Assembly: GCA_030651765.1 (NCBI GenBank)
Contig: JAUSBY010000003.1
Span: 1-64,000 of the forward strand
Direction: 5' to 3'
From: Coriobacteriia bacterium
GTDB taxonomy: Bacteria > Actinomycetota > Coriobacteriia > Anaerosomatales > Anaerosomataceae
Length of the DNA: 64,000 nucleotides
Shown: positions 2,277 through 19,122 of the stretch, one piece after another
Position numbering within the stretch: position 1 is the first letter of the stretch
How the letters are laid out: each line of letters starts with the position of its first letter
Translations under genes and position numbers: made by a program
The notes under the pieces: model-generated
Seen by the model: the letters and a program-made list of their open reading frames with translations, nothing else
The model's database searches: none
What the model was told of the DNA's origin: nothing

Positions 2277-2325
2277 TGGTGCCCCCGGCATGATTCGAAC
2301 ATGCGACACCCGGTTTAGGAAACCG
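2277..2325 (-). pseudogene. Host tRNA-Arg(CCT), separated 3' half (with att core)
   Basis: On the minus strand this reads the anticodon loop TTCCTAA, the 3' anticodon stem, variable loop GTGTC, T arm GCATG/TTCGAAT/CATGC, acceptor strand CGGGGGC, discriminator A and encoded CCA. The sequence 5' of it (2326 upward) does not form a D arm or an acceptor strand complementary to CGGGGGC. The missing 5' half is at 14129-14169, 11.8 kb away, and pairs correctly with this half (GCCCTCG with CGGGGGC, one G-U). Joined at the core, the two give a normal 76-nt tRNA. Confidence 0.9.
2312..2325. other. Left attachment core
   Basis: GGTTTAGGAAACCG is identical to 14129-14142; the flanking bases differ on both sides (c/a before, a/g after). 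Within it, GGTTT-AGG-AAACC is a perfect inverted repeat around the anticodon complement, the usual geometry of a tyrosine recombinase core. Confidence 0.85.
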
Positions 2326-2353
2326 AGGTATAGCCGAGCGAAAGAGCAGGTCA

Positions 2354-2413
2354 GTGGCATAAAACCTGCCGAGAAGCCCGAGAATGTGGCATATCCGTGG
2401 CAGTCCCGTGGCG
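2354..2413 (+). repeat. GTGGCA repeats, candidate integrase arm sites (left end)
   Basis: GTGGCA occurs at 2354-2359, 2386-2391 and 2397-2402, with GTGGCG at 2408-2413. The last three are spaced exactly 11 bp. The same motif with the same 11-bp spacing occurs near the right core (14030, 14041). Position and phasing suit arm-type binding sites; this is inference. Confidence 0.5.
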
Positions 2414-2435
2414 CGAGAAGGTCAACGAACAGCAG

Positions 2436-2460
2436 AGGGATGGTCATTCAGACCATCCCT
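2436..2460 (-). terminator. Hairpin downstream of element tRNA-Arg
   Basis: AGGGATGGTC (2436-2445) and GACCATCCCT (2451-2460) form a perfect 10-bp stem with a 5-nt loop. It lies 17 bp beyond the 3' end of the minus-strand tRNA at 2478, so it could end that transcript. There is no clear U-tract. Confidence 0.5.
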
Positions 2461-2477
2461 ACTGAAGGTTTGTCGTT

Positions 2478-2552
2478 GGTGCCCTCGCCGGGAATCGAAC
2501 CCAGACCTAGGGATTAGGAATCCCTTGTTGTATCCGTTCAACTACGAGGGCG
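2478..2552 (-). tRNA. tRNA-Arg(CCT), intact, carried by the element
   Basis: The minus strand folds as a complete 75-nt tRNA. The acceptor is GCCCTCG/CGAGGGC and the D arm GTTG/CAAC. The anticodon stem AGGGA/TCCCT has loop TTCCTAA (anticodon CCT). The T arm is CTGGG/CCCGG with loop TTCGATT, and CCA is encoded. It reads AGG codons, as does the host tRNA that the element splits. Its anticodon stem differs from the host's (CCGGT/ACCGG), so it shares only the 7-nt loop with the 14-bp att core. It lies 30 bp downstream of the integrase gene, on the same strand. Confidence 0.95.
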
Positions 2553-2581
2553 TGCCATGGGATTCTACCTTGATTAGCCAC

Positions 2582-3796
2582 CTATAGGAATTGGTCTGAA
2601 GTGCCGTTGAGCACCGCAGCCGCTCTCGCCGCCAAGTCTGGCGAGTCTGCATCGAGTGCGGATGAGTAGACCGCAAAAGTGAACGATGGGTCGTGATGCC
2701 CGAGCCAACGACTGACGGTATGTACATCCACCTGACGACTCCGGAGGATTTGGGTTGCGTACAGATGGCGCCACTGGTGCGTTGACACCAGGAAGTTCTC
2801 CTGCGTGAGCCTGCGGTCGTAGGGCTCTACCTTCTCCTGATATGCCTGCCACACTCGCTCCAGACAGTCGTTGTACTGTCGTGTGAAGTAAGACTGACTC
2901 TCCCAGAGCCCCCATCCGCCCCCCCTTGTTGGTCTTGGGAATATGAGGTCGGGCTCGATGCCGCCCTTGTCTTCGTGGGCGTAGAGCCAGATGCGCTCGA
3001 AGACCTCTGGCGACAGTGGAATCGTCCGCTTCGCATTATCCGTCTTCAGTTTGGCGAGCGGCTTCGACTTGCTCCAGTTCCATTGTGAACTGAACGATAT
3101 AGTGCATGTGTCTGGGTCAAGGTCGCTGACGGTCAGGCCGAGCCATTCTGAGCGCCTGGCGCCTGTGTGTCGTGCCACGAACAGAAGATTGTGCCAGTAC
3201 CGACCGACCAGCCCCTCCTGTCCCTCCTTCTGCCCTTCTTGTCGCAAATGCTCCAGAATCCACGCTGCAGAATCCTTGTTCAGACTGGTCTTAACGACCG
3301 CCGTCGCCTTTCTACTGGGCAAACGCTCCGACTTTGGGAAGGGGTGGTCTGCTTCAGCAATCAGGCGATGCTTCACGGCCAGATTCATGACTTGGCGGAA
3401 TCGCTGCATCAACTTGCGTCCATAGTTGTCCGAGTACTGGGACAACTTCGGCAAGAAGTGGTCAACATCTCGGCTCGATATCCGGGCAACTGGGATTGCA
3501 CCGAAGTGCTCCGTGAGGACTTTGCACGAGTTGGAGTAGTCGCTCGCCGTCCGGCCGGAGAATCGTGGCAGATACTCCGTCTCGACGAACTCCTTGAAAG
3601 CGATGAGGGAATGCTTCGCCTTGATTTCGTCAGGGTTGGCGCCGTCGGCGAGCAACTCCTGGGCTCGCTCGATGGCCGCCTCGGCTTGGCGCCGCTGTTT
3701 GAATGTGCCGAGGCAGACTCGACCGCTACCTGGGACACTGAGACGAGCGGTGTAGGACACCTCGCCGTTGCTACCTGTGCGCCGCTCGATGGTCAC
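2582..3796 (-). CDS. int: Tyrosine recombinase/integrase (likely the element integrase)
   Basis: Site-specific recombinase of the phage integrase family, about 404 residues. It has an N-terminal arm-binding-like domain (YTARLSVPGSGRVCLGTF), a SAM-like core-binding domain, and a C-terminal catalytic domain. Catalytic residues are visible: R in HTGARRSEWLGL, H and R in HQWRHLYATQ, H in WLGHHDPSFT and the nucleophile Y in FAVYSSA. The GTG at 3796 follows AAGGGAG and is preferred; an ATG at 3826 would add 10 residues without a good ribosome site. It sits beside the left att core and the tRNA, the normal place for the enzyme that integrated the element. Confidence 0.9.
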   Translation of the reverse strand: MTIERRTGSNGEVSYTARLSVPGSGRVCLGTFKQRRQAEAAIERAQELLADGANPDEIKAKHSLIAFKEFVETEYLPRFSGRTASDYSNSCKVLTEHFGAIPVARISSRDVDHFLPKLSQYSDNYGRKLMQRFRQVMNLAVKHRLIAEADHPFPKSERLPSRKATAVVKTSLNKDSAAWILEHLRQEGQKEGQEGLVGRYWHNLLFVARHTGARRSEWLGLTVSDLDPDTCTISFSSQWNWSKSKPLAKLKTDNAKRTIPLSPEVFERIWLYAHEDKGGIEPDLIFPRPTRGGGWGLWESQSYFTRQYNDCLERVWQAYQEKVEPYDRRLTQENFLVSTHQWRHLYATQILRSRQVDVHTVSRWLGHHDPSFTFAVYSSALDADSPDLAARAAAVLNGTSDQFL

Positions 3797-3880
3797 CGTG
3801 TCTCCCTTGGCTCCGAGTAGTCCCATTGTACGGCGCTGATGACTCCGTGCAGTGCTACGGTACTCGGAGAGGCCAGGGCG

Positions 3881-6433
3881 CTATGGTAGTTCTAGTTGGG
3901 ATTCCTCACCGACACCATCGAGTTCGACATCTAACGCAGAGCGGAACTGCATGATTTGTCCTCGACGCATCCGGTCAAACAGCGGTGGGAATGATTGCGG
4001 TGTGACGAAAGTGAACTTGTACCGCACGGGAGAACCTATCTCCTCCAGGCGCTGATTGAGCGTGCGGAAGTGGCGTTGGGCATGGAGATTCTTGCCTATA
4101 TTCTCGGCGGATGGCTCTCGAACCTCGTCGTCGTCTTTGACTTCTGCAACCAAGACCACATCACCGCACCGAATCAGGAAGTCCGGAGAGAAGCGCCCTC
4201 GCTTTGGATGCGTACCTCTTCTCCATGCGTAGTCGAAGTCGAAGAAGCGCACCGCCGTATTCTTGAGCCAGCCACTGATGCATGCGGCATTCTCAGGCTT
4301 CCTCAACTCGCCGATGAACTTAGCCTCGTTGTCCGAGTCGGCGATGACAAGGTTCAGCGGGGTCTTGAAGTCGTAGGTGTTGGTGGTGAGCGACTTCTTG
4401 TAGGAGCTGAACTCCTCAGCCACTCGGTCGAAGAAGCCAAGTTGCGTTTCTTCGAGCGTCTCTCGGGTTTGTTCCGTGTAGAACAGGGTCTTCTTCGACC
4501 GGAGTTCGGACTCACCCACGGAGTCGCTCGGGCGTTCCCTGGTGTCGAGTGTTCGGAACTCTCTTTCGGTTGGAACCCAGCGAGCAGTTGCCGAGACGCC
4601 CCGCTTGAGCGGGCCGAGAGCCGCCAAGAAACGCCGCCGCATATCGTCAGTGAGGTACTCGGCGCCAGCCATGTCGAGCGAGCGGCGTATCACAGCCGCA
4701 AACCATTCGGTCGTGTACTTGGAGTGGTAGTCGGTTGGAGTGGTGTCGTCTGCGTTAGTCTCGTCTATCTCACAAACTCGGGCGTATAGGAGTCGTGCAA
4801 TGTCGGCTACTTCGTACACGGGCTGAGTTGTCGTTCCCTGGATGACCCTTCTGACATTGCCAAACACATCGACCATCTCGATTGGCACTTCACGAACGAC
4901 CAACTCCGTTGGCAGGTCGACATACCCTTTCGCAAGGAACTCGACCTCTCCGTCGTAGTGGGTCTCGTATGAAGTCTGCTCCATCTCATACTGGATATTG
5001 TGGAGTTCGAAATGGTGTGGCGAGTCAGCGACCGGGCGGCTTGTGAGCCGTTGAGTCGCCTCCAGAACCTCATCGACCAAGCGACGAATCTGGGGAGCCC
5101 ATGCCTGGTGGTTGAACACGGTCACCCACGGCTGCTCGCCCTGAGACATCGCAACTGGCAGACGAAGCCCTCGCCCGAGTACCTGTGCAATAAGGAGTTT
5201 GCTGTTGAACGCCCGCTCCTCGTGCGGAACGATGATGAACACTCGTTTGACGTCCCAGCCCTCATTTAGCATGGATACGCTGACAATCCATTCGACCTCG
5301 CTTGCGGGGTTGTCAACGGTAGTCAGCCGTGGGAGGTCGGGTGCGCCCGTATAGACCGCAAGAACGGCTTTGTTGGACTCCTCAGCCGATAGCGCATCGC
5401 TCGCAATCAGGAACTGCTTGAGTTCGGCGGCCACACGACTGCAGCTTGTGATGTCGGGTGTCACCACGATGGTCAGTGGGCGTATCGAGTAGGGTTCCAA
5501 GCGCCTACGCACGGCTTCGTGCTCCTGGCGAATCAACTGCCAACGTTCGTCCCAGCCACGGAGGCTGGGCATGTCGTCTACATACTCGATGTTCTTGATA
5601 TAACGCTCTTCAATCGCCTGTCGGAGCGAGTAGCGATAGATGACATCAGCGAAGTAATCGTTGTCCGAGTAGCAGGTGCCGGACACCCCGAGCACGAGAT
5701 TGAAACCGAAAACGGGGTCTTCGATGAACTCCCGCCACTTGCGGCGGTCTTGAGTCTGGTCGACGCTCAGGACATGGTGCGTCTCATCGTTTAGGACTGC
5801 TACCTTGTCGCCACGGTCTCTTAGGCTCTCTCGAATGGATGAGCCTACGCCTGTAAGTATCGCATGGTAGTTCTCGATGCAGATGGCTCCAGCAGTGATT
5901 GACTGCGAGCCGTCGATGACGGATGGGGTCGTGACCACCGAATCGCAGGGCATTGTCGCTGTGAGGATTCCGTTCTCGGCAAGTCGCCGGAACTTCTCAG
6001 TGAGTTCCCGCTCGATTGTGACCGACGGGCACAGCAGAAGTACGCTCTCAACAGCCCCCTCGGCGAGGAGGATGAGTGCGATTCCGTAGAGCACATAGCT
6101 CTTGCCGGTGCCTGTCGCAAGGTCAAGAGTGGCGGACAGCAGATGCGGGAAGGTGAGGCACTGCTGCATGCCCCGAATCGACCCGTAACGCTGCTCGAAG
6201 ATACCAGTGCGGTCGGCCTGGTAGTTCTCCTCAGCCAGCTGTTCAAGTGAACGGTATCGACCGCCCAGCAGGTACCTGAGGGCAGTGAAGATGGCATCCT
6301 TCTGATACTGGCGATTGCCACAAAGCGTATCGACGAACTCCGAGTACCTGTCTTCGTCCCAGACTTGTCTATCAACGCTTGCGCTGACCTTCAGCACCAA
6401 GTCCTGGTTGTGGATGATTGGCGTTTCGGGCAT
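3881..6433 (-). CDS. res: Type III restriction enzyme Res subunit
   Basis: Superfamily 2 helicase-nuclease of a Type III restriction-modification system; with Mod it translocates on DNA and cuts when two sites are inversely oriented. Walker A (ATGTGKS) is near residue 110 and the DEAD-like box DETHH near 216-220. Helicase motif VI is the VLGRGLRLP stretch. A C-terminal PD-(D/E)XK nuclease is seen as SPDFLIRCGDVVLVAEVK around 745-770. The 850-residue length fits the family. The ATG lies 2 bp after the mod stop, so the two are co-transcribed and coupled. No truncation is seen. Confidence 0.92.
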   Translation of the reverse strand: MPETPIIHNQDLVLKVSASVDRQVWDEDRYSEFVDTLCGNRQYQKDAIFTALRYLLGGRYRSLEQLAEENYQADRTGIFEQRYGSIRGMQQCLTFPHLLSATLDLATGTGKSYVLYGIALILLAEGAVESVLLLCPSVTIERELTEKFRRLAENGILTATMPCDSVVTTPSVIDGSQSITAGAICIENYHAILTGVGSSIRESLRDRGDKVAVLNDETHHVLSVDQTQDRRKWREFIEDPVFGFNLVLGVSGTCYSDNDYFADVIYRYSLRQAIEERYIKNIEYVDDMPSLRGWDERWQLIRQEHEAVRRRLEPYSIRPLTIVVTPDITSCSRVAAELKQFLIASDALSAEESNKAVLAVYTGAPDLPRLTTVDNPASEVEWIVSVSMLNEGWDVKRVFIIVPHEERAFNSKLLIAQVLGRGLRLPVAMSQGEQPWVTVFNHQAWAPQIRRLVDEVLEATQRLTSRPVADSPHHFELHNIQYEMEQTSYETHYDGEVEFLAKGYVDLPTELVVREVPIEMVDVFGNVRRVIQGTTTQPVYEVADIARLLYARVCEIDETNADDTTPTDYHSKYTTEWFAAVIRRSLDMAGAEYLTDDMRRRFLAALGPLKRGVSATARWVPTEREFRTLDTRERPSDSVGESELRSKKTLFYTEQTRETLEETQLGFFDRVAEEFSSYKKSLTTNTYDFKTPLNLVIADSDNEAKFIGELRKPENAACISGWLKNTAVRFFDFDYAWRRGTHPKRGRFSPDFLIRCGDVVLVAEVKDDDEVREPSAENIGKNLHAQRHFRTLNQRLEEIGSPVRYKFTFVTPQSFPPLFDRMRRGQIMQFRSALDVELDGVGEESQLELP

Positions 6434-6435
6434 CT

Positions 6436-8493
6436 TCAGGCACCTTCTGGGGACGAGGTTTCGAGCACATGCCGAGACTCATTGCCGTAGAGGTCAGTGA
6501 ATACGACCATGACCCGCCCCGTCTGGGAGGAGCGGGGAAGGTCGATTCGCCAATCGCTGGCGACTAGGTCAGCGGGGTAGAGCACCTTGTCCATGTCGAA
6601 CACCTCGTTGTCGTACTCGTAGTCGAGCATGACCATGGCCAAGGAGTCCCGACCGATTCCGTCAACAGGAGCTAGCCTTGAGCGGCTGCTGAACTCATCG
6701 ACCACCAACACCGAAGAACCCGAGTCGTTCGCCTCGATGGAGAACGTGACGGTTGGGGGCTCGATGAAGTCGAAGCCGACGGCATCAACGGTGGCATTGA
6801 CCTCGTCTGCTGTCTGGGGCTGTGCAATTGCGGAGAACTGCCGACGATGCAGCTCGTTTATGAAGGAGTATGGGATACGAAGTGCGTAATAGCGCACACC
6901 ATCGAACTCTAAGTAGTCTTCCTGGAACCTGAACACGTTCCTTGGAGCGACGATATACACTTGGCTACCAGCGAGTTGTCCAACGGCGGAGTGCAGGTCT
7001 CTGACGGCGTCTTCGTCAATCCTCATCTTCGGGTAGGACACATGGTTGTGAACTAGCACTGGAGAGCCATATCGAGTTCCTTGAAACACGACACCCCCAA
7101 GTCTGAACTCGCCTGCCTGGCATGAGAACAACTCCAGTGCGAAGAACAGCCAAGACTCCCAGTCCAGCGACTTCAGTTGGCTGTAATCGTATAGGCCGGC
7201 GTTGAACACCGTGAACTTCGAGGATGGACGCAGGCGCCCCTTGTTACCGATGCCCTCACGAAGGGTGAGCAAGCGCTTCTGAATCGTGTAGATAGCCAGT
7301 TTCCCGCAGTCAATGCCAATCCATCGGCGTTCTAGCTTCTCTGCCACGGCAAGAGTTGTCCCAGAACCGGCGAAGCAATCGAGAACTAAGTCTCCTGGTG
7401 TCGAAAGCCAGTTTACGATTCGAGCAAGAAGTTCCTCGTGTTTCTCGGTCGGATAGTCGGTCACCTTGCCGATGGTGCGAACATCGCCCCACATGGTACT
7501 GAGTATCTTCGACTCCTGAGGCGGGACATAGTACTGCACGACACCCGACTCGTTCAGACGAACGAAGTCCAGCTTCGTTCCCCAACTCAAGCGTTCAAGG
7601 TAGTAGTCGTCGAGTGTGCCGTTCTCTTCCTCGTCCTCCAGGTAGGCGAGGTAGTTGGCGGCGGCGGTCTTCCCTCGTGATTTCATCCATCTCCACTGGC
7701 CGGTTGTCGGCTCTTGGCCGAACAGCTCGTACCTCATCGTCTGCCTGTCGGTTCCTCGCCAGAAGGTATCCCACTTGCCGATGGTCGCCTCGGAGTGCTG
7801 ACTGCGAGCATGTGGAAGCCGTGTTCCAGTCGACTTGGAGTACAGGTAGAGCGAGTCGTCTCCGACCGTCAGTGACTCGATTTCGTCGAACTGGTTCTGC
7901 ACATTCTTGGTACCTCGACGCACCTTGATTTCGTTGCGGAAGCCGCCCGAGAACACTTCATCGAGCACGACCTTGATGTAGTGCCCCCATCTGTAGTCGA
8001 TGTGCACCAAGAGGAAGCCGTTGTCAGCAAGTAGTTCCCGGATGAGGATGATTCGCCTACGGAGAAACTCTACGAAGCGCGCGCCCTCAAGCTTGTCGGA
8101 GTAGGCGCGGGCGGAGGAACTCCCTCTGAAGTCTCTGCGAGTAGCGAATGGCGGGTCTATGTAGACCAAGCGGAACCCCTCAGTGCCGTCGGGGTTCACT
8201 AGCTTGTGCGCCCGCTTCAGGTCTAGCAGGTGTCGCATAGCCTGCAGGTTGTCACCAAAGACGAGCATGTTCGCCCAATCGTCCCACTTGGGCTCCCCGA
8301 AGGTCGACGCCGCCTGGAATGGCACGGCCAGGGTCGACGAGACGACCTCCTCCTGGCGCACCTTGCCGCCGTAGGTCAGTTCTATCTCCTGGCGAGCTGG
8401 TGGAAACAGTTCCCGTTGCCACTCTTGGGGAAGCGCCTCACCGCTGTTGAGGGCGTCGACGACTAGTCGTCGAAGTTCATCGGAATAGGGCAA
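6436..8493 (-). CDS. mod: Type III DNA methyltransferase Mod subunit
   Basis: Beta-class adenine N6 methyltransferase that recognises the target and modifies host DNA. Motif IV DPPF is at 113-116 and motif I FAGSGTT at 374-380. The stretch between them is the variable target-recognition region. This IV-before-I order is diagnostic of Type III Mod. Length is 685 residues, in family range. A TTG start at 8493 is the only in-frame choice near the conserved N-terminus. It precedes res with a 2-bp gap. The 230 bp upstream, shared with the divergent second integrase, should hold the promoters. Confidence 0.92.
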   Translation of the reverse strand: MPYSDELRRLVVDALNSGEALPQEWQRELFPPARQEIELTYGGKVRQEEVVSSTLAVPFQAASTFGEPKWDDWANMLVFGDNLQAMRHLLDLKRAHKLVNPDGTEGFRLVYIDPPFATRRDFRGSSSARAYSDKLEGARFVEFLRRRIILIRELLADNGFLLVHIDYRWGHYIKVVLDEVFSGGFRNEIKVRRGTKNVQNQFDEIESLTVGDDSLYLYSKSTGTRLPHARSQHSEATIGKWDTFWRGTDRQTMRYELFGQEPTTGQWRWMKSRGKTAAANYLAYLEDEEENGTLDDYYLERLSWGTKLDFVRLNESGVVQYYVPPQESKILSTMWGDVRTIGKVTDYPTEKHEELLARIVNWLSTPGDLVLDCFAGSGTTLAVAEKLERRWIGIDCGKLAIYTIQKRLLTLREGIGNKGRLRPSSKFTVFNAGLYDYSQLKSLDWESWLFFALELFSCQAGEFRLGGVVFQGTRYGSPVLVHNHVSYPKMRIDEDAVRDLHSAVGQLAGSQVYIVAPRNVFRFQEDYLEFDGVRYYALRIPYSFINELHRRQFSAIAQPQTADEVNATVDAVGFDFIEPPTVTFSIEANDSGSSVLVVDEFSSRSRLAPVDGIGRDSLAMVMLDYEYDNEVFDMDKVLYPADLVASDWRIDLPRSSQTGRVMVVFTDLYGNESRHVLETSSPEGA

Positions 8494-8723
8494 GCTACTT
8501 CAACCCCCCACTGGTGTCCCGCAGTGTTCCTTCTGCACCCGCTCAGGATAGCGTAGCTCACCGTGCTGACACGAACCCACTGAAGGTGCACCCTCGACAC
8601 CGGACAATTCCCTCGAAGCGCGCCAGGATAGTGATAGGCGGGAATATTGGCACATTTCCGCAGCTCACAAGCCTGCAGGTAGGGGCTGGTGCTTCTAACA
8701 AAGTGCTAACGGGAGGGCTAGAT
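8494..8723. promoter_or_regulatory. Divergent intergenic region between mod and second integrase
   Basis: 230 bp separate the minus-strand mod-res operon from the plus-strand integrase. Both promoters must lie here unless the integrase is driven by readthrough. I see no confident -35/-10 pair and no tRNA or repeat. An upstream in-frame extension of the integrase to 8514 has no family-like sequence, so I treat it as noncoding. Confidence 0.35.
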
Positions 8724-9851
8724 ATGGCGAGTGGAACGCTGGTTCGGCGGGGCGATAGCGGCGTGTACCACATGGTCTACCGAGACCCGGCGAGTGGCCG
8801 TCAGGTGTGGCGCTCCACAGGGACGAATCGGCGCCGTGAAGCCGAGCGGCAACTCGTCGAGTTGCGCCATCGTCTCGGGCTGGAAGGTGAGTCGCACCGT
8901 CCCTCACGGGACATGGAGTTCGGCCGGTTCGTGTCCGACCACTGGTTGCCCGAGCGGTGCGGCGTTCTGAAGGACAGCACGCAACGGCAGTACGCTCAGA
9001 CTGCGAAGGTCGTCGTCGCATGGCTTGGGTCGTCCACCACGGTGCGGAAGGCGCTCACGGTAGGTAGGGCTCAAGCGTATGTCGCCTACCTCGCCGAGAC
9101 TGGGCGCAAGCCGTCGACTATCCGGAACCACCTTGCGCTCATCTCGTCGATGGCCTCGTATGCGGTGCATCTCGGCTACCTCGACCGCTCTCCGATAGGG
9201 GGAGTCGCAGCGCCGAGGGTGGAGCGTCCCGAACCCGTTGCCTACACCGCCGAGGAGATGCGGCGCATCCTTGCCGCTCTTCCAAGAGGCGAGAGAGATA
9301 TCGCCATCATGCTGTTTGCACTGGGGCTGAGGCGCAGCGAGTTGAGTCCGCTGGTGACATCTGACTATGTATCCAGCACGAACATGGTCGGCGGTGCTGC
9401 TTGCGGGATGCTTCGCATCGAGCGGCGGGCGTGGAGGGGCAAGTTGGGAACGCCGAAGACTGGTGTGCGGGTGGTTCCGATAGGGGGAGTCGCAGAAGAG
9501 GTGGTGCGGCGCCGCTCGGCAGGCAAGCAGCCCGGAGACCTGCTCTTTCCAAGTGAGCGTGGCAGGCTCATCGACTGGGACAAGTGGGCGAGGACATGGT
9601 GGTTGCCGGCACTCAGAAGAGCGGGAGTGACGCCCATGGGTCTGCATGCTGCAAGGCGTACCGCAATCACTCTGACGCTCGCCTCGGGCACCCCAATACA
9701 GGTTGCGGCGAGGCGCTTCGGCGCATCAGCGAAGACCATCCTTGCCCACTACGCCTCGGTCGACCGAGAGGCGGCGGTGGCGGCTGCTACGGCGGTCGAG
9801 GATGCGATGGCGGGGGCGGGCTCCGCACTTCAGAGGTCGGGTGCGGCGTGA
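8724..9851 (+). CDS. Second tyrosine recombinase, altered catalytic box
   Basis: Phage-integrase family protein, 375 residues from the ATG at 8724, which follows GGGAGG at 8711-8716. The N-terminal AP2-like segment (YHMVYRDPASGRQVWRST) is followed by a core-binding domain (STQRQYAQTAKVVVAWL), then the catalytic domain. Arg I is in ALGLRRSEL, the beta-hairpin Lys in GTPKTGVRVVPI, H and R in HAARRTAIT, and Tyr in AHYASV. Where the family has LGHS the protein reads FGAS, so the second His is missing. It may be a less active recombinase, a site-specific variant, or a relic of a nested insertion. It is not next to either att core. Confidence 0.85.
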   Translation: MASGTLVRRGDSGVYHMVYRDPASGRQVWRSTGTNRRREAERQLVELRHRLGLEGESHRPSRDMEFGRFVSDHWLPERCGVLKDSTQRQYAQTAKVVVAWLGSSTTVRKALTVGRAQAYVAYLAETGRKPSTIRNHLALISSMASYAVHLGYLDRSPIGGVAAPRVERPEPVAYTAEEMRRILAALPRGERDIAIMLFALGLRRSELSPLVTSDYVSSTNMVGGAACGMLRIERRAWRGKLGTPKTGVRVVPIGGVAEEVVRRRSAGKQPGDLLFPSERGRLIDWDKWARTWWLPALRRAGVTPMGLHAARRTAITLTLASGTPIQVAARRFGASAKTILAHYASVDREAAVAAATAVEDAMAGAGSALQRSGAA

Positions 9852-11868: not shown

Positions 11869-12367
11869 CCGTTCGATTGGCCGGTCGGAGCTATTATCGG
11901 CGCTCGGGCAGTTCTCATTAGGGAAATCTGAATAGAATCGGCCAGCAGGTAACTGAAGGGCGCCCGTCCCCCCAGACCCCCCTGGGAATTGCCAGCTGGG
12001 TCTCGTTCAGGCTAGTCCAAGGAATTAGCTTCTTACTCAGTAAGCAATTCCTTTCGCATGCGCACATGCGAGGAATGCGTGGCTGGCGGCAGGTCTCACC
12101 GCTGAGAATCGGCACCAAAGAGGACAACAGGTGATGCGTGGCTCACCGATGTCCCTGCTAGGCCGACTTGCCCAGTGGTTCAGCCTCGAAATCGCTCGAT
12201 GCCCACCCTGCCCCCAATGCGGTCACTAATGGAGACCTGGCAGAAGAGAGATGTTGCGAACCGTTTGGTCGTCCGCTGGAGTCTTGCGTCAGAGGTCTCT
12301 GCGATTCGTCCATGTCGGCCATTGCGCGCATACTCGTGGGGCACGGTCGTTCAGATTGGGGGGCTTA
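11869..12367. other. 499-bp noncoding region with palindromes
   Basis: No credible gene was found on either strand. It separates the minus-strand HTH operon from the plus-strand OLD gene and so must hold divergent promoters. Two palindromes stand out: 12021-12051 (GGAATT...CTTACT-C-AGTAAG...AATTCC) and 12055-12070 (CGCATG-CGCA-CATGCG). They are 3 bp apart and could be operators, or an origin or transfer site. Confidence 0.5.
12021..12070. repeat. Two adjacent palindromes
   Basis: The first has outer arms GGAATT (12021-12026)/AATTCC (12046-12051) and an inner perfect palindrome CTTACTCAGTAAG (12032-12044). The second is CGCATG (12055-12060)/CATGCG (12065-12070) with a 4-nt loop. No U-tract follows, so a terminator is unlikely. 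Confidence 0.6.
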
Positions 12368-14020
12368 ATGCAGATAGCCAAGGTGCACATCGAGAACTTC
12401 CGCTCAATCGCCGAATGTGACATTGAGTTCACTTCACTCACTGCGATTATTGGGGCGAACAACACCGGCAAGAGCAACATTCTGCTTGCGCTCAAACGAG
12501 TCTTGGCCGGCGACTGGGTTAATGCGTCGACATTCTCAGAATCTGATGTGCGGGGACACGACCCAGACCGAGACATCGTCATCGAGGTCACCCTCGACCC
12601 GCCCCTCCAGTATCGTCGCTACAAGGAAGCATCTGCGGTTTCAATCGGATGCCTGCGATTCGCCTTCACAAGATACAAGAAGGGAGATAAGGCAGGGCAG
12701 CGCCGTATTGAGCAGATGTGCTTGTCTCCGGCTGGAAAGCAGGTGGCTGTTCCGACGAGCGCGCCCAAGAAGGGGCAGCAGCTCAAGTTCGAACCACTCT
12801 TGGGGATTCCGCCAGAAGTCAGGCAGGCGATTCCTGTGGTGTATGTCGGCGTCGACCGCTCCGTTCGAAACCAGCTGCCAGGCGCACGGAACTCCCTGCT
12901 GAGACTACTGCTCCAGGACATCGTGGAGTCGTTTGAGGGCGAGGCTTGCATAGCAGAGTCTGAGGATGCGACGGCCGCCGAAGGTGCTTCCCGCTCAGAG
13001 CGTTTCAGTGAGGCCATGACCGTTGTCATGGGGCTTCTCCGTACGGATGAGTTCAACGACCTTGAGGCGACCATCAAGGCGAAGTCGTTGGAGCAACTCG
13101 GATTCGACCCCACGGTCGATGAAGACATGCTCGACCTGTACTTCGCTCCGCTTGAACCGATGGACTTCTACAAGAACCTCGACCTGCGTGTTCGGGAGGG
13201 CGAATGTGCGGTGAGCGCCACAGAACTGGGTGGGGGAGTCCAGAACGCCATTGTCATGGCCATCCTGCAAGCCTTTGAGCAAAGGCGGAAGAAGGGCGCC
13301 GTGCTCCTGATTGAAGAGCCGGAGATGTTCCTTCATCCCCAGATGCAGCGCTCACTCTACAAGACGCTCAGAGACATCAGTAGCAGGAACCAAGTCATCT
13401 GCACGACGCACTCCCCTCACTTCATTCGGGTCGAGGAGTACCAGGAAGTCCGGCTCGTCACGAAGACCGAGGACGGCACGGCAGTGGCGGCTTCCTCGCT
13501 GGAGCGGACAACAGCCCGAGTAGAGAAACTCAGAAAGGAACTCGACCCAGAGCGCGCCGAGATGTTCTTCGCCAGCCGAGTTCTCTTCGTTGAGGGAGAC
13601 ACGGAGAAGCTGGCGCTACCCGAGTACGCCAAGCGATTGAACATCGACCTCGACCGTGCAGGCGCAACAGTCGTGGAGGTTGGTGGGAAACGGAACCTGC
13701 AAGAGATGGCGCTCATCGCCAAGTCATTCGGAATCCCTGTCGGGATTCTATTCGATTCGGATACCAAGAACTCCGACGATGAGTGTCTGAATAGGGAGTT
13801 GCTCGGACTTGGTGATGCGTCCACGCAGACTTGGGCGTGTGAGCCTGACTACGAAGCCGAGGTGAAAGCGGCGATGGGCGATTCAGAGTACGAGGCGGCG
13901 TGCAGTCGCCATCCGGGTCTTCGCAAGCCAGTGAAGGCCAGACTCATAGCCGCTGAGCCAGAGAGTGCCATCCCAGCCAAGGTCGAGCAGGCTCTTCGTT
14001 GGCTTGGTCGTTCGGACTAG
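12368..14020 (+). CDS. OLD-family ATP-dependent endonuclease
   Basis: 550-residue protein with an ABC-type ATPase joined to a TOPRIM nuclease, as in phage P2 Old and Gabija GajA. Walker A GANNTGKS is at 29-36, and Walker B LLIEEPEMFLHPQ near 313, followed by a D-loop/switch His region (TTHSPHFIR). The TOPRIM acidic motifs are VEGDTEKLALP near 407 and LFDSDTK near 460. The start at 12368 matches the family N-terminus (MQIAKVHIENFRSI) and follows GGGGGG. No UvrD-like GajB gene is adjacent, so it fits stand-alone (class 1) OLD rather than Gabija. It is the last gene before the right att core. A role in phage defence is likely. Confidence 0.88.
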   Translation: MQIAKVHIENFRSIAECDIEFTSLTAIIGANNTGKSNILLALKRVLAGDWVNASTFSESDVRGHDPDRDIVIEVTLDPPLQYRRYKEASAVSIGCLRFAFTRYKKGDKAGQRRIEQMCLSPAGKQVAVPTSAPKKGQQLKFEPLLGIPPEVRQAIPVVYVGVDRSVRNQLPGARNSLLRLLLQDIVESFEGEACIAESEDATAAEGASRSERFSEAMTVVMGLLRTDEFNDLEATIKAKSLEQLGFDPTVDEDMLDLYFAPLEPMDFYKNLDLRVREGECAVSATELGGGVQNAIVMAILQAFEQRRKKGAVLLIEEPEMFLHPQMQRSLYKTLRDISSRNQVICTTHSPHFIRVEEYQEVRLVTKTEDGTAVAASSLERTTARVEKLRKELDPERAEMFFASRVLFVEGDTEKLALPEYAKRLNIDLDRAGATVVEVGGKRNLQEMALIAKSFGIPVGILFDSDTKNSDDECLNRELLGLGDASTQTWACEPDYEAEVKAAMGDSEYEAACSRHPGLRKPVKARLIAAEPESAIPAKVEQALRWLGRSD

Positions 14021-14128: not shown

Positions 14129-14142
14129 GGTTTAGGAAACCG
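14129..14142. other. Right attachment core
   Basis: Direct copy of GGTTTAGGAAACCG. On its right it continues into the host tRNA-Arg 5' half; on its left lies element DNA with no T arm or acceptor strand. Confidence 0.85.
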
Positions 14143-14169
14143 GTGCTCTATCCCCTGAGCTACGAGGGC
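14129..14169 (-). pseudogene. Host tRNA-Arg(CCT), separated 5' half (with att core)
   Basis: The minus strand from 14169 reads acceptor GCCCTCG, TA, D arm GCTC/AGGGGATA/GAGC, A26, anticodon stem CCGGT, loop TTCCTAA and ACC. It then runs into element sequence that cannot complete a tRNA. It is 41 nt long and complements the 35-nt 3' remainder at 2277-2311. Any host promoter lies to the right (above 14169), so a truncated tRNA transcript would run into the element antisense to the OLD gene. Confidence 0.9.
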
Positions 14170-14320: not shown

Positions 14321-15580
14321 GTGCGTATCCTGCGGAATATAGGCATCTTCCTGATCGTCGTTGTCCTCACGGCGGCGGTGACCGTGAGCGCACTCCTCTA
14401 CGGGCCTGCGCTGCTCGGAGAGACAGCTGCCGCATCGGATGCCGTCGGCGTCTGGCCCGAGGCGACGACCGAGCGCACGGTCGCCGAGCCACCACCGCGT
14501 GTCGAGCGCTTCACGATCCTGGCGGTGGGGGACCTCATGACCCACGGGCCGCAGATCACCTCGGCCAAGACGGCCGACGGCTACGACTTCACCTCGTGCT
14601 TCGCACCGGTCGCCTCCCGTGTCGCCGCGGCCGACCTGGCGATCGGGAATCTGGAGACCGCACTCGCCGGCGCCGATCGGGGCTACACGGGCTACCCGAC
14701 CTTCAACGCGCCCGACTCCTACGCGGAGGCCCTCGTCGCGGCAGGATTCGACGTTCTGACGCACGCTAACAACCACTCGCTCGACCGCGGAGCCTCGGGC
14801 CTCGTCCGGACGCGTGACGTCCTGGACCGTCTCGGCGTGCTCACGACCGGCACGGCGCGCACTGCCGAGGAGGCCGAGGAGATCCTCGTTGCGGACATCC
14901 GCGGCGTGAAGGTCGCGATCCTCGCGTATACGTACGGGATGAACGGCTTCCAGCCCCCGTCGGACAAGCCGTGGATGATCAACGTGCTCGGCGAGGCCAA
15001 GATGACGGCGGACGTCAAGCGCGCACGTGAGATCGGCGTGGACCTCGTGATCGTGAGCATCCACAACGGTGTCGAGTACCAGCGACAGCCGTCGGCGTCG
15101 CAAGAGAGCCTGGAGCGGGCGATGGTGGACGCGGGCGCCGACGTGGTCCTCGGCAGCCACCCCCACGTCATCCAGCCGATGAAGATAGTGCAAGCCGAGT
15201 ATGAGGACGGCACGCCGCGCACGGCGTTCATCATCCACTCACTCGGCAACTTCGTGTCCAACCAGCGCGAGCGGTTCCGGGACACCGGGCTGCTGCTGCG
15301 GTTCGGCTTCGAGAAGAACCTGAAGACGGGCGTCACCGAGCTCGTCTCGGTGGAGTACGTTCCGGTCTGGGTGGACGACACGGGTGTCGCGGGCAAGGAG
15401 CACCGCGTACTGCCGATCCGCGAGGTTCTCGCCGACGACGCGTATCCGGGCGTGACGGCCGCCGAGCGTGTGAAGATGCGGCAGGCATGGGACGACACGA
15501 CGACGCACCTTGGCAGCGTCGAGGCCACCTCGGCCGACTCCTCGGCGCTCGTCTTCTACGGGACGCCGCTCGCCCGCTAG
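14321..15580 (+). CDS. CapA-family metallophosphatase-like protein
   Basis: Protein of the CapA/PgsA family linked to poly-gamma-glutamate capsule synthesis. The GTG at 14321 follows AAGGGA and leads into an N-terminal membrane anchor (NIGIFLIVVVLTAAVTVSALLYG). The domain shows the metallophosphatase-like motifs AVGDLMTHG, NLETAL, THANNHSLDRG, SIHNGVEY and LGSHPHVIQPM. Most of it should face outside. No capB/capC genes are nearby, so the exact substrate is unknown. About 419 residues, normal for the family. Confidence 0.88.
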   Translation: MRILRNIGIFLIVVVLTAAVTVSALLYGPALLGETAAASDAVGVWPEATTERTVAEPPPRVERFTILAVGDLMTHGPQITSAKTADGYDFTSCFAPVASRVAAADLAIGNLETALAGADRGYTGYPTFNAPDSYAEALVAAGFDVLTHANNHSLDRGASGLVRTRDVLDRLGVLTTGTARTAEEAEEILVADIRGVKVAILAYTYGMNGFQPPSDKPWMINVLGEAKMTADVKRAREIGVDLVIVSIHNGVEYQRQPSASQESLERAMVDAGADVVLGSHPHVIQPMKIVQAEYEDGTPRTAFIIHSLGNFVSNQRERFRDTGLLLRFGFEKNLKTGVTELVSVEYVPVWVDDTGVAGKEHRVLPIREVLADDAYPGVTAAERVKMRQAWDDTTTHLGSVEATSADSSALVFYGTPLAR

Positions 15581-15584
15581 CAGA

Positions 15585-16415
15585 TCAGCTCTCCGGGTAG
15601 TGGTCCGGGTGCGCACCGAGGCGCTCGCCGCGGTCGAGCAGGTCGATCTCGCGCATCTCCTCGACCGTGAGCTTGAAGTCGAACACGTCGGCGTTCTCGG
15701 CGATGCGCTCAGGATGCACCGACTTCGGGATCGTCGTGATGCCGTGCTGCAGGATCCAGCGGATGGCGACCTGGGCGGCGGTCTTCTGGTAGCGGGCACC
15801 GATCTCGACCAGCGTCGCGAGCTCGGCGACACGGCCCCTCATGAGCGGCGCCCACGCCTGCACCACGATGTCGTGGCCCTCGCAGTACCCCAGAAGATCG
15901 TGCTGCTGGAGGAGCGGGTGGAGCTCGTACTGGTCGACGACCGGCAGGACATCAGCTGTTGCAATCAACGGCTCGAGATGGTGCCTCAGATGGTTGCATA
16001 CGCCGATCGCCCTCACGGCGCCATCGGCATGCAGGCGCTCCATCGCGCGCCACGTGTCGGGGGTCTCGGGGCGCGGCCAGTGCACCAGGTACAGGTCGAG
16101 GTAGTCGGTGCCGAGGCGCGCGAGTGACGCTTCGAATGCGGCGAGCGTCGAGTCGTACCCCTGCTCGTCGTTCCAGACCTTGCTCGCGAGGAAGATCTCG
16201 GCCCGGGGCACCCCGCTGCCGGCGATCGCGCGCCCGATGCCCGACTCGTTGTCGTAGAGCGACGCCGTGTCGATCCCGCGGTAGCCGATCTCGAGCGCGT
16301 GGGCCACCGCGTCCTCGACGTCCCCGCCCTCGGCCGACTTGTACGTGCCGAGTCCGAGCCGCGGCATCTCCACGCCGTTGGCCAGTGTGATCGTATCGTC
16401 GATCCTGTGCAGCAT
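15585..16415 (-). CDS. Aldo/keto reductase
   Basis: NADPH-dependent oxidoreductase with a TIM-barrel fold. The family tetrad is visible: D49, Y54 (GIDTASLYDNE), K79 (SKVWN) and H112 (LVHWP). The cofactor-binding end includes TTIPKSVHPERI. Length is 276 residues, close to 2,5-diketo-gluconate reductase types. The ATG follows GGGAGGTGGCGAC. It converges with the CapA-like gene (4-bp gap between stops). Substrate is unknown. Confidence 0.92.
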   Translation of the reverse strand: MLHRIDDTITLANGVEMPRLGLGTYKSAEGGDVEDAVAHALEIGYRGIDTASLYDNESGIGRAIAGSGVPRAEIFLASKVWNDEQGYDSTLAAFEASLARLGTDYLDLYLVHWPRPETPDTWRAMERLHADGAVRAIGVCNHLRHHLEPLIATADVLPVVDQYELHPLLQQHDLLGYCEGHDIVVQAWAPLMRGRVAELATLVEIGARYQKTAAQVAIRWILQHGITTIPKSVHPERIAENADVFDFKLTVEEMREIDLLDRGERLGAHPDHYPES

Positions 16416-16496
16416 GTCGCCACCTCCCGGGCATGTTCATACCCGAGCAGCCGCGCGAAGCGTTGCGGCGGGAACAAACCCGGCAGGGGGTGGTCG

Positions 16497-17126
16497 ATGA
16501 TGTATGCCGACAGGGCAGACGCGGGCAGGCATCTCGCCCGGGCGCTCGCGGGTCGGCTCGGGCCCGATGCGCTCGTGCTCGGCATCCCGCGCGGTGGTGT
16601 GGTGCTGGCCGCCGAAGTCGCCGACGCGCTCGGGCTCGAGCTCGATGTCGTGATCGTGCGCAAGATCGGCGTACCCGGCAATCCGGAGTATGCGATCGGC
16701 GCTCTCGATGAGGAAGGGCGGGTGCTCGGCGCTCGAAGCGCGCTTGCCGATGACGCCTACGTACGGCACGCGGCCGAGCAGGGCAGGAGCGAGATCGCTC
16801 GCCGGCTGGCCGAGTACCGGGGCTCGCGTCCCGCACCCGCGATCGCGGGCAGGGAGGTCGTCATCGTCGATGACGGGATCGCCACGGGCTTCACGCTGCG
16901 GGCCGCGATCGAGTCGGTCCGCAGGCGGGGAGCGTCGCGGGTGGTCGTGGCCGCGCCGGTGGCTTCGGTCCCGGCGGCATCGGACATGCGAGCGGTCGCC
17001 GACGAGGTCGTCGTGCTCGACGAGCCGGACGACTTCCGTGCGGTGGGGCAGTTCTACCGCGTGTTCGACCAGACCGGGGACGCCGAGGTCGTGCATATCC
17101 TCTCCGGCACGCGACCCCGAACGTGA
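16497..17126 (+). CDS. Phosphoribosyltransferase
   Basis: 209-residue type I phosphoribosyltransferase fold. The PRPP-binding loop is VVIVDDGIATGFT, and an upstream flexible segment reads GIPRGGVVLAAEVADALG. Related proteins are annotated as predicted phosphoribosyltransferases of unknown base specificity, sometimes fused to dienelactone hydrolase. Two tandem ATGs (16497, 16500) follow AGGGGG. It is divergent from the aldo/keto reductase, and a strong bidirectional hairpin follows its stop. Confidence 0.9.
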   Translation: MMYADRADAGRHLARALAGRLGPDALVLGIPRGGVVLAAEVADALGLELDVVIVRKIGVPGNPEYAIGALDEEGRVLGARSALADDAYVRHAAEQGRSEIARRLAEYRGSRPAPAIAGREVVIVDDGIATGFTLRAAIESVRRRGASRVVVAAPVASVPAASDMRAVADEVVVLDEPDDFRAVGQFYRVFDQTGDAEVVHILSGTRPRT

Positions 17127-17152
17127 CGAGACCCGCCGGTGGGCGGGTCTCG
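17127..17152. terminator. Bidirectional terminator hairpin
   Basis: CGAGACCCGCC (17127-17137) and GGCGGGTCTCG (17142-17152) form a perfect 11-bp stem with loop GGTG, between two convergent genes. There is no long U-tract. Confidence 0.75.
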
Positions 17153-17177
17153 TGAGCGATGCTATCCGGCCCGCGCC

Positions 17178-19070
17178 CTACGGTTCCTCGGGCAGCTTGC
17201 CCACCTCGATCTCGACGGTGTCGCCACGGCTGGCCGACGCGCCCGGGATCGGGAACTGGTTGACGACGATGCCGTCATCCGGACTGTCGACGTAGACCAC
17301 CTTTGCCACGAGGCCGGCGGCTTCGATCGCCGACTTGGCTTCGGCTTCGGTCTTTCCGCGCACGTCGGGCACGAGGATGACCTCGGGGCCCTTGGAGACC
17401 TCTATCGTCACCGTGCTACCCGCCTCGACCAGGACATCGGCGTCGGGCTTCTGCGAGACGACCGAACCCTTGATCACCGAGGCGTGATAGACCTCGTTGA
17501 CCTTGACCGCGAGTCCGGCGGCCTTGATGTCGGCGGTGGCGTCGGCCTGCGGCTTGCCGACCACGTTAGGCACCTTGACCTGCGCGACGCCTTCCGAGAC
17601 GTAGAGGATCACGCGCGTGCCCTTGGGGACCTGGGCGCCGGTCGCGGGCTCGGTACGGATCACGTCACCCTTCGGGACGTCTGCGTTGTTCTCGCGGATC
17701 GTCTTGTTGTAGTCCAGGCCGGAGTCCTCCGACCGAAGGATGTCAATCGCCTCGCCCTCGGCCATCGTGGTGAAGTCGGGGACCTCGACTTGCGCGATGC
17801 CGAGGCTGATCACGACGCTGACCGCCGTACCCTTTTCGACCTTGCTGCCCGCAGTGGGATCCTGGCGGATGATGAGTCCGATCTCGACGGCGTCGTCGTT
17901 CTCGGTACCGAGTTCACCGATGACGAGCCCGGCTGCACTGAGCTCGGCGATCGCCTGTTCTTCAGTGAGTCCGGTGAGCGTCGGCACGACCACGCCGCTG
18001 TTGCCGATGAGTCCCATCGTGTATGCGCCGGCGATACCGAGCGCGATGATCAGCGCGCCGATGGCGACCCACATCCATGGATTCGTGCGGCGCTCCGGAA
18101 TCGACCGCACGGGAAGCGGTGTCTCCGCGCGGGGGGTGGACGTGCGATCGACGGCCGGCAGCACGCTCGTCTGGCCGATGTCCGCCACGCCACCGTACGC
18201 ACCGCCGATGGCGGGCTCGCCACTGATCACGCGCTTCAGGTCGTCTCGCATCTCGGCAGCCGAGGTGTAGCGCTGGCCCGGGTCTTTGCGCATCGCCCGC
18301 AAGATGACCGCCTCGAGTCCGGGCGGGATCGAGCCACGGACCTGCCGGGGCGGCGTCGCCTCATCGTTGACCTGCATGAGCGCGGTGGCCACAGGGGTGT
18401 CGCCGTCGAACGGCACGCGCCCGGTCACCAGCTCGTAGAGGGTGACGCCGAGCGAGTACAGGTCTGAAGACGGCGTGAGGGTTCGTCCCTGGGCCTGTTC
18501 GGGGCTGATGTACTGCGCGGTTCCGAGCACGGAACCCGTCTGGGTCATCGTGGTATTGCCTGCCCTGGCGATGCCGAAGTCCATGACCTTGATCGCGCCG
18601 TCGGGCGTGAGCACGATGTTGTGCGGCTTGATGTCCCGGTGGATGATGTCGTACCCATGGGCCACGCCCAGCGCCGCGCACACCTGCGCCGCGTACTCGG
18701 CGGCCTTGAGCGGGTCGAGCGGTCCACGCTCGGTGATGAGTGATTTGAGGTCGCGTCCGTTCACGTACTCCATGACGATGTAGTACGTCTCCCCGTCACG
18801 GCCCCAGTCGTAGATGTTCACGATGTTGGGATGCGAGAGGTTCGCCGCGGCCTGAGCCTCCTGGCGGAAGCGTGCGACGAAGTTGGGGTCTGCGGCATAG
18901 CGCGCGTGCAGCACCTTGACGGCGACCGTCCGGCCGAGGACTTCGTCCACGGACTTATAGACGTCGGCCATCCCGCCTGTGCCGATCTTCTCGGTGGCGC
19001 GGTACCTGCGCCCGAAAACGAGGTCTTCCACCAGTTGCCTACCCTCTCTCACCTGCGACGATACGCTCAC
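17178..19070 (-). CDS. pknB: Ser/Thr protein kinase with four PASTA domains (PknB/StkP type)
   Basis: Membrane kinase that senses peptidoglycan fragments and controls growth and division. The kinase domain (about 22-285) has the glycine loop IGTGGMADVY, K52, catalytic HRDIKPHN (144-151) and DFG (164-166). One membrane helix lies at about 332-354. Four extracellular PASTA repeats follow at about 358-424, 427-494, 497-562 and 565-625. Length is 630 residues, typical. It is the last gene of the fhaA-fhaB-pstP-rodA/pbpA-pknB cluster, the same order as in mycobacteria except that pknA is absent here. Confidence 0.95.
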   Translation of the reverse strand: MSVSSQVREGRQLVEDLVFGRRYRATEKIGTGGMADVYKSVDEVLGRTVAVKVLHARYAADPNFVARFRQEAQAAANLSHPNIVNIYDWGRDGETYYIVMEYVNGRDLKSLITERGPLDPLKAAEYAAQVCAALGVAHGYDIIHRDIKPHNIVLTPDGAIKVMDFGIARAGNTTMTQTGSVLGTAQYISPEQAQGRTLTPSSDLYSLGVTLYELVTGRVPFDGDTPVATALMQVNDEATPPRQVRGSIPPGLEAVILRAMRKDPGQRYTSAAEMRDDLKRVISGEPAIGGAYGGVADIGQTSVLPAVDRTSTPRAETPLPVRSIPERRTNPWMWVAIGALIIALGIAGAYTMGLIGNSGVVVPTLTGLTEEQAIAELSAAGLVIGELGTENDDAVEIGLIIRQDPTAGSKVEKGTAVSVVISLGIAQVEVPDFTTMAEGEAIDILRSEDSGLDYNKTIRENNADVPKGDVIRTEPATGAQVPKGTRVILYVSEGVAQVKVPNVVGKPQADATADIKAAGLAVKVNEVYHASVIKGSVVSQKPDADVLVEAGSTVTIEVSKGPEVILVPDVRGKTEAEAKSAIEAAGLVAKVVYVDSPDDGIVVNQFPIPGASASRGDTVEIEVGKLPEEP

Positions 19071-19122
19071 GCGCCCATCTATTCTACCGTATAGCCGCCT
19101 GCTTCGCTCTCAGCGTCGCGGG

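Follow-up and report, generated by a model that had tools for sequence, protein, structure and literature searches.

An Island Inserted into a Host tRNA-Arg(CCT) Gene Carries a Complete tRNA-Arg(CCT) That Probably Replaces It

Classical tRNA-gene islands (Islander, PMC4383910) use a tyrosine integrase, attach in the anticodon loop and rebuild the target tRNA from a matching half. The closest system to the locus described here is tRNA-dependent lysogeny, which was proven by experiment in 2024 for actinobacteriophages, with the experiments in mycobacteriophages (Guerrero-Bustamante and Hatfull, PMC10865867). The phages concerned are Fionnbharth, LeBron, Mollymur and Gaia, and the targets are Lys-TTT, Ile2-CAT and Leu-CAA; the phage tRNA was shown to be required for viable integration. 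In Sinorhizobium meliloti, prophages and islands were reported in which the host tRNA gene is inactivated by an insert carrying a foreign-type isoacceptor tRNA gene (PMC11476347). Tycheposons (PMC10872708) are likewise bordered by a tRNA and carry a tyrosine recombinase, which is a resemblance only, as the part of that source used here gave no evidence of their splitting and replacing a tRNA.

The present locus lies in a window of 64,000 nucleotides, i.e., the start of a contig (G000:C4:1-64000) in an assembly of 2.26 Mb that is 97.4% complete. An island of ~11.8 kb, with a G+C content of 59.0% vs. 68.0% for the remainder of the window to its right, interrupts the host tRNA-Arg(CCT) gene at the anticodon loop. 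The features of the locus are as follows.

2277..2325, reverse strand: attL, 3′ half of the host tRNA-Arg(CCT) (positions 28-76), 100% identical to the intact tRNA of the congener G001
2312..2325, no strand assigned: 14-bp core, copy 1 (anticodon loop and part of the stem)
2326..2476, no strand assigned: left arm of the attachment site, from core to tRNA, with ACCTGC and inverted GCAGGT (motif also beside both relatives' cores)
2436..2460, reverse strand: 10-bp hairpin just 3′ of the island tRNA (fold z-score −4.4)
2477..2551, reverse strand: complete tRNA-Arg(CCT), the proposed replacement, with encoded CCA and all stems paired (ARAGORN and Rfam)
2562..2567, reverse strand: TAGAAT, a putative −10-like hexamer 5′ of the island tRNA (TAAAAT in relatives)
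2582..3826, reverse strand: tyrosine integrase, 414 aa (Pfam PF00589, PHROG 1, alignment)
3881..6433, reverse strand: type III restriction subunit (ResIII)
6436..8493, reverse strand: N6/N4 DNA methyltransferase of the type III system
8514..9851, forward strand: second tyrosine recombinase
12251..14020, forward strand: OLD-family ATPase with TOPRIM nuclease (Old/GajA-like)
14129..14142, no strand assigned: 14-bp core, copy 2
14129..14169, reverse strand: attR, 5′ half of the host tRNA-Arg(CCT) (positions 1-41), 100% identical to the tRNA of G001

The two host halves overlap by the 14-bp core (read on the tRNA strand as CGGTTTCCTAAACC), which occurs in the window at the two junctions only, with 0.00 matches expected from shuffles. 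Where a classical restoring island regenerates an intact target at one junction, the attL and attR sequences here rebuild the host tRNA at neither. ARAGORN also called a "tRNA-Arg(CCT)" at 2277-2347, which was rejected as it consists of the host 3′ half joined to unrelated island sequence without a proper 5′ half. The empty site is found in G001, the sole other genome of the genus compared, which possesses a joined 76-nt tRNA-Arg(CCT) that is 100% identical to the host halves. The right flank of the window (14357-21399) matches G001 at 94.5% identity over 7 kb, and the left flank (1918-2115), by translation the 3′ part of rpiA, matches at 82%. The intact tRNA and the matching flanks together indicate that the split halves arose by insertion. 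In G001, an extra ~2.7 kb with a long surface-protein-like gene lies between the tRNA and the right flank.

The island tRNA scores 66.8 bits in Rfam, vs. a gathering score of 29. A sequence-only reading of the window had recognised this complete tRNA and its 30-bp distance from the integrase; the distance, measured to the integrase stop codon, was confirmed, but ARAGORN and Rfam place the tRNA at 2477-2551 rather than the 2478-2552 of that reading. The changed anticodon stem it described (AGGGA/TCCCT vs. CCGGT/ACCGG in the host tRNA) and the lack of the 14-bp core were also borne out, but the 7-nt loop TTCCTAA, on which it laid no stress, is identical to that of the host. The hairpin at 2436-2460, at which no T run was found, is a probable terminator or processing hairpin. 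A consensus scan of the window found no full promoter, i.e., no clear −35/−10 pair, for the island tRNA.

Rfam detection of tRNAs, with anticodons assigned by ARAGORN, gave 45 tRNAs in the assembly, all with an anticodon; those for arginine are ACG, CCG and TCT plus the CCT of the island. No second complete CCT tRNA is present among the 45, in an assembly whose 97.4% completeness means that a second copy could be missing. A search pattern for the CCT anticodon loop joined to the T arm, with loop pairs assessed within the order, gave two hits in this assembly among the matches listed, namely the island tRNA and the 3′ half of the split host gene. In a census of 51 near-complete genomes from the order, the canonical CCT tRNA is intact in 43. 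The window genome, G041 and G050 retain halves of the canonical tRNA only, and the other five genomes are G064, G032, G089, G099 and G113. No CCT tRNA was found in G089, G099 or G113 among the matches listed. G064 has a divergent complete CCT tRNA, which was rejected as an example of replacement since no integrase adjoins it. A 13.8-kb contig of that genome (G064:C2, L149) has 14 ARAGORN tRNA calls and is possibly a phage tRNA array. In G032 (97% complete), the canonical tRNA-Arg(CCT) consists of positions 1-48 only (L144:1099-1146), with no further CCT tRNA among the matches listed for this genome. This truncated gene adjoins a surface-protein gene like that of G001.

The relatives of the integrase were sought in 398 genomes of the class, and an alignment search was also run on 396 genomes of the phylum; the assemblies are MAGs. 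The nearest integrases, at 33-34% identity, belong to two other genera, i.e., G041 (HGW-Actinobacteria-7) and G050 (UBA2184). The alignment search returned these two only, with none in the 396 phylum genomes at E <= 1e-25 besides the window's own, and single-protein searches of genome contigs, viral contigs, phages and plasmids with the integrase gave no match. The catalytic residues R224, H350-x-x-R353, H377 and Y387 are kept in all three aligned integrases. The sequence-only reading had suggested a search for integrases beside tRNA-Arg(CCT) with split halves, and both nearest integrases independently have the layout of the window: integrase, complete tRNA-Arg(CCT), hairpin, short spacer and split host 3′ half. 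The layout is thus known from three examples. The 3′ halves in G041 and G050 start at TTCCTAA, and the matching 5′ halves, which end within the same 7-nt loop, lie 27 and 32 kb away at the far ends of the islands. The anticodon-loop pattern found no second complete CCT tRNA in G041 (100% complete) or G050 among the matches listed.

The three island tRNAs share 63-70% identity among themselves and 62-72% with their own hosts' tRNAs, in contrast to 91-92% among the three host tRNAs. Nevertheless, their stems are fully paired, they score 64-71 bits and CCA is encoded. Their anticodon stems are AGGGA (window), ATCGC and CGGAC vs. CCGGT, CAGGT and CAGGT in the respective hosts, and the loop, TTCCTAA in the window, is CTCCTAA in G041 and G050. 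The GGA (A20-type) in the D loop and C35, as read from the sequences of the replacement tRNAs, are tRNA identity elements. A strong hairpin directly 3′ of each island tRNA differs in sequence in all three. Either TAGAAT or TAAAAT lies upstream, together with a string, TAAAATCACCAGAGTTC, common to G041 and G050.

It is very probable that the integrative island has split the host tRNA-Arg(CCT) and that its own tRNA of the same isotype takes over AGG decoding. This agrees with the sequence-only reading, which had proposed an integrate-and-replace strategy, and is supported by the sole complete CCT tRNA of the assembly and by the two islands of the same layout. AGG is a codon in use here, at ~5.7 per 1000 codons of the host region by a rough count. 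The tyrosine integrase would act on a short core in attP and on the host gene's anticodon loop, recombining the two and cutting the gene into halves that neither junction would repair. With just the loop and a few stem bases common to attP and attB, the host tRNA would be destroyed. The complete tRNA has a body of its own and is located next to the integrase, immediately outside the attachment site; it would then take over AGG and would have to be transcribed, charged and functionally complementing. An integrase of the lambda type would exchange strands within the loop and recognise the stems as core sites, which fits the conserved catalytic residues, the inverted-repeat stem around the 7-bp loop and the flanking ACCTGC. 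ACCTGC motifs flank the cores on both sides, and judged by sequence, the ACCTGC/GCAGGT motifs at 2326-2476 are probable arm-type integrase sites. The changed anticodon stem plausibly protects the island tRNA from the integrase, as the stems of all three island tRNAs differ from those of their hosts; however, foreign origin alone would also account for the change.

The cargo differs among the islands, with no cargo common to the three in the sequences compared; one protein pair of equal length from the window and G041 was considered as shared cargo and rejected. Restriction-modification genes are present in all three, type III in the window and G041 and type II in G050. Besides the tRNA-linked integrase, one more recombinase gene of this kind is found in each of G041 (L126:8723-9934) and G050 (L127:10321-11487). 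The integrases are the sole phage-type matches among the ORFs scanned in the window island. The proteins tested from the G041 and G050 islands include no clear structural gene, with one weak secondary terminase-small match on an excisionase-like protein. By the proteins tested, these islands are not temperate phages.

Three other explanations of the locus were weighed. The tRNA could be ordinary cargo, serving as codon help for the AT-richer island genes or as a spare resistant to tRNA-cleaving defences, with the isotype match being coincidental. By rough counts, AGG and AGA are more frequent in island genes (10.4 and 8.4 per 1000) than in the host region (~5.7 and 1.5 per 1000), which favours such a role, as does the OLD-family gene of the island; the PARIS-type systems, which are related to the OLD family, act via tRNA cleavage. 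However, in all three islands the position next to the integrase is occupied by a tRNA of this one isotype, even though the cargo varies, and CCT is both the sole tRNA carried and the sole gene split, making a cargo role very unlikely. A false joining of unrelated sequences during assembly, to which the start of the contig inside a multi-copy IS21 element might point, is extremely improbable, as both junctions lie within the contig, the flanks match G001 and two independent assemblies (G041 and G050) have the same layout.

Another explanation is that the host CCT tRNA is dispensable and that the island tRNA is vestigial or of little consequence for fitness. The tRNA-Arg(TCT), which is present here, might read AGG by wobble, and G032 seems to be without an intact CCT gene, having the truncated one alone, suggesting that loss of the CCT tRNA may be tolerable. 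Yet the three island tRNAs, strongly diverged as they are, have kept full pairing, CCA and hairpins, and the canonical tRNA is retained near-universally in the order, so that this explanation as a whole is very unlikely.

Replacement of the host tRNA by the island tRNA links this locus to tRNA-dependent lysogeny (PMC10865867) through the tyrosine integrase, an attB in a tRNA gene, two junctions that do not rebuild the tRNA, an element tRNA that matches the target in isotype but not in body, and a short core (8-17 bp in the phages, 14 bp in the anticodon arm for the window island). The integrate-and-replace mechanism is thus not new, having been published as tRNA-dependent lysogeny. In contrast to those temperate phages, the elements here are restriction-carrying islands with no recognised phage structural genes in the proteins tested and an Arg-CCT target; their core is centred on the anticodon loop, and the tRNA lies between the integrase and the attachment site in all three. 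They are also known from sequence alone, whereas the phages were proven by experiment. The S. meliloti cases (PMC11476347) likewise combine a split host tRNA with an isoacceptor in the insert, and some are called genomic islands, but they concern tRNA-Leu(UAG) and Thr(GGU) in alphaproteobacteria, and the islands there are associated with same-type prophages. The replacing islands share the tyrosine integrase and the attachment in the anticodon loop with classical tRNA-gene islands (PMC4383910), but not the rebuilding of the target.

As far as the literature was searched, replacing islands with Arg-CCT, and restoring and replacing islands at one site, look new. The 2024 phage mechanism would thereby be extended to restriction-carrying islands, the Arg-CCT isotype and an actinobacterial order that has received little study; the three examples come from three genera. 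This suggests that foreign tRNAs enter core genomes via integrase-linked replacement. Such islands would probably escape programs that detect islands by matching an intact tRNA to a fragment of that same tRNA. More tentatively, the integrase, the replacement tRNA and attP may constitute a portable module that non-phage defence islands of the order share, in which the tRNA body is exchangeable while its place and isotype are kept and the diverged stem is invisible to the integrase. If so, the host would depend on the island for AGG decoding unless the island excises precisely.

The origin of the replacement tRNAs was sought among viruses and in the class. An IMG/VR search with the anticodon arms identified no source: the matches are partial tRNA matches at 79-92%, and that to the window's own island tRNA covers a 3′ half only. 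In a viral contig (L152:1863-1912), a tRNA-Arg(CCT) 3′ half has the AGGGA/TCCCT anticodon arm of the window's island tRNA and follows CTACCTGC, which also precedes the attachment sites of the relatives. Across the 398 genomes of the class, the best match to the window tRNA is 78%, so that no relative carrying the 2477-2551 tRNA at a chromosomal site was found; nor, as noted, is there another intact CCT tRNA among the 45, and these were the two findings that the sequence-only reading had set against its own proposal. MT835493 and the Bacteroides phage Versailles match the island tRNA, each with a complete tRNA-Arg(CCT) beside an integrase, a layout resembling ordinary tRNA-adjacent integration.

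In both G041 and G050, a second 5′ half marks a neighbouring classical restoring island, whose own integrase precedes that half. The replacing island was apparently inserted into a tRNA restored by the earlier island. The restoring and replacing islands thus stand in tandem at one tRNA-Arg(CCT) (L125-L128), and their coexistence at one tRNA makes a direct comparison of the two strategies possible. Restoring islands are also found at tRNA-Arg(CCT) in the relatives G115 and G081. Many genomes of the order have an intact tRNA-Arg(CCT) copy together with displaced 5′ or 3′ halves, and this tRNA is an integration hotspot across the order (L138, L139, L142, L143 and others).

At the left end of the window, an IS21 element occupies 1-1917, with istA at 38-1096 and istB at 1093-1863. 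Its end directly abuts the 3′ part of rpiA, so that rpiA may be interrupted by the element. Contigs C10, C11 and C12 carry copies of the IS21 ends at their termini, and contig C4, i.e., that of the window, starts inside this multi-copy element.
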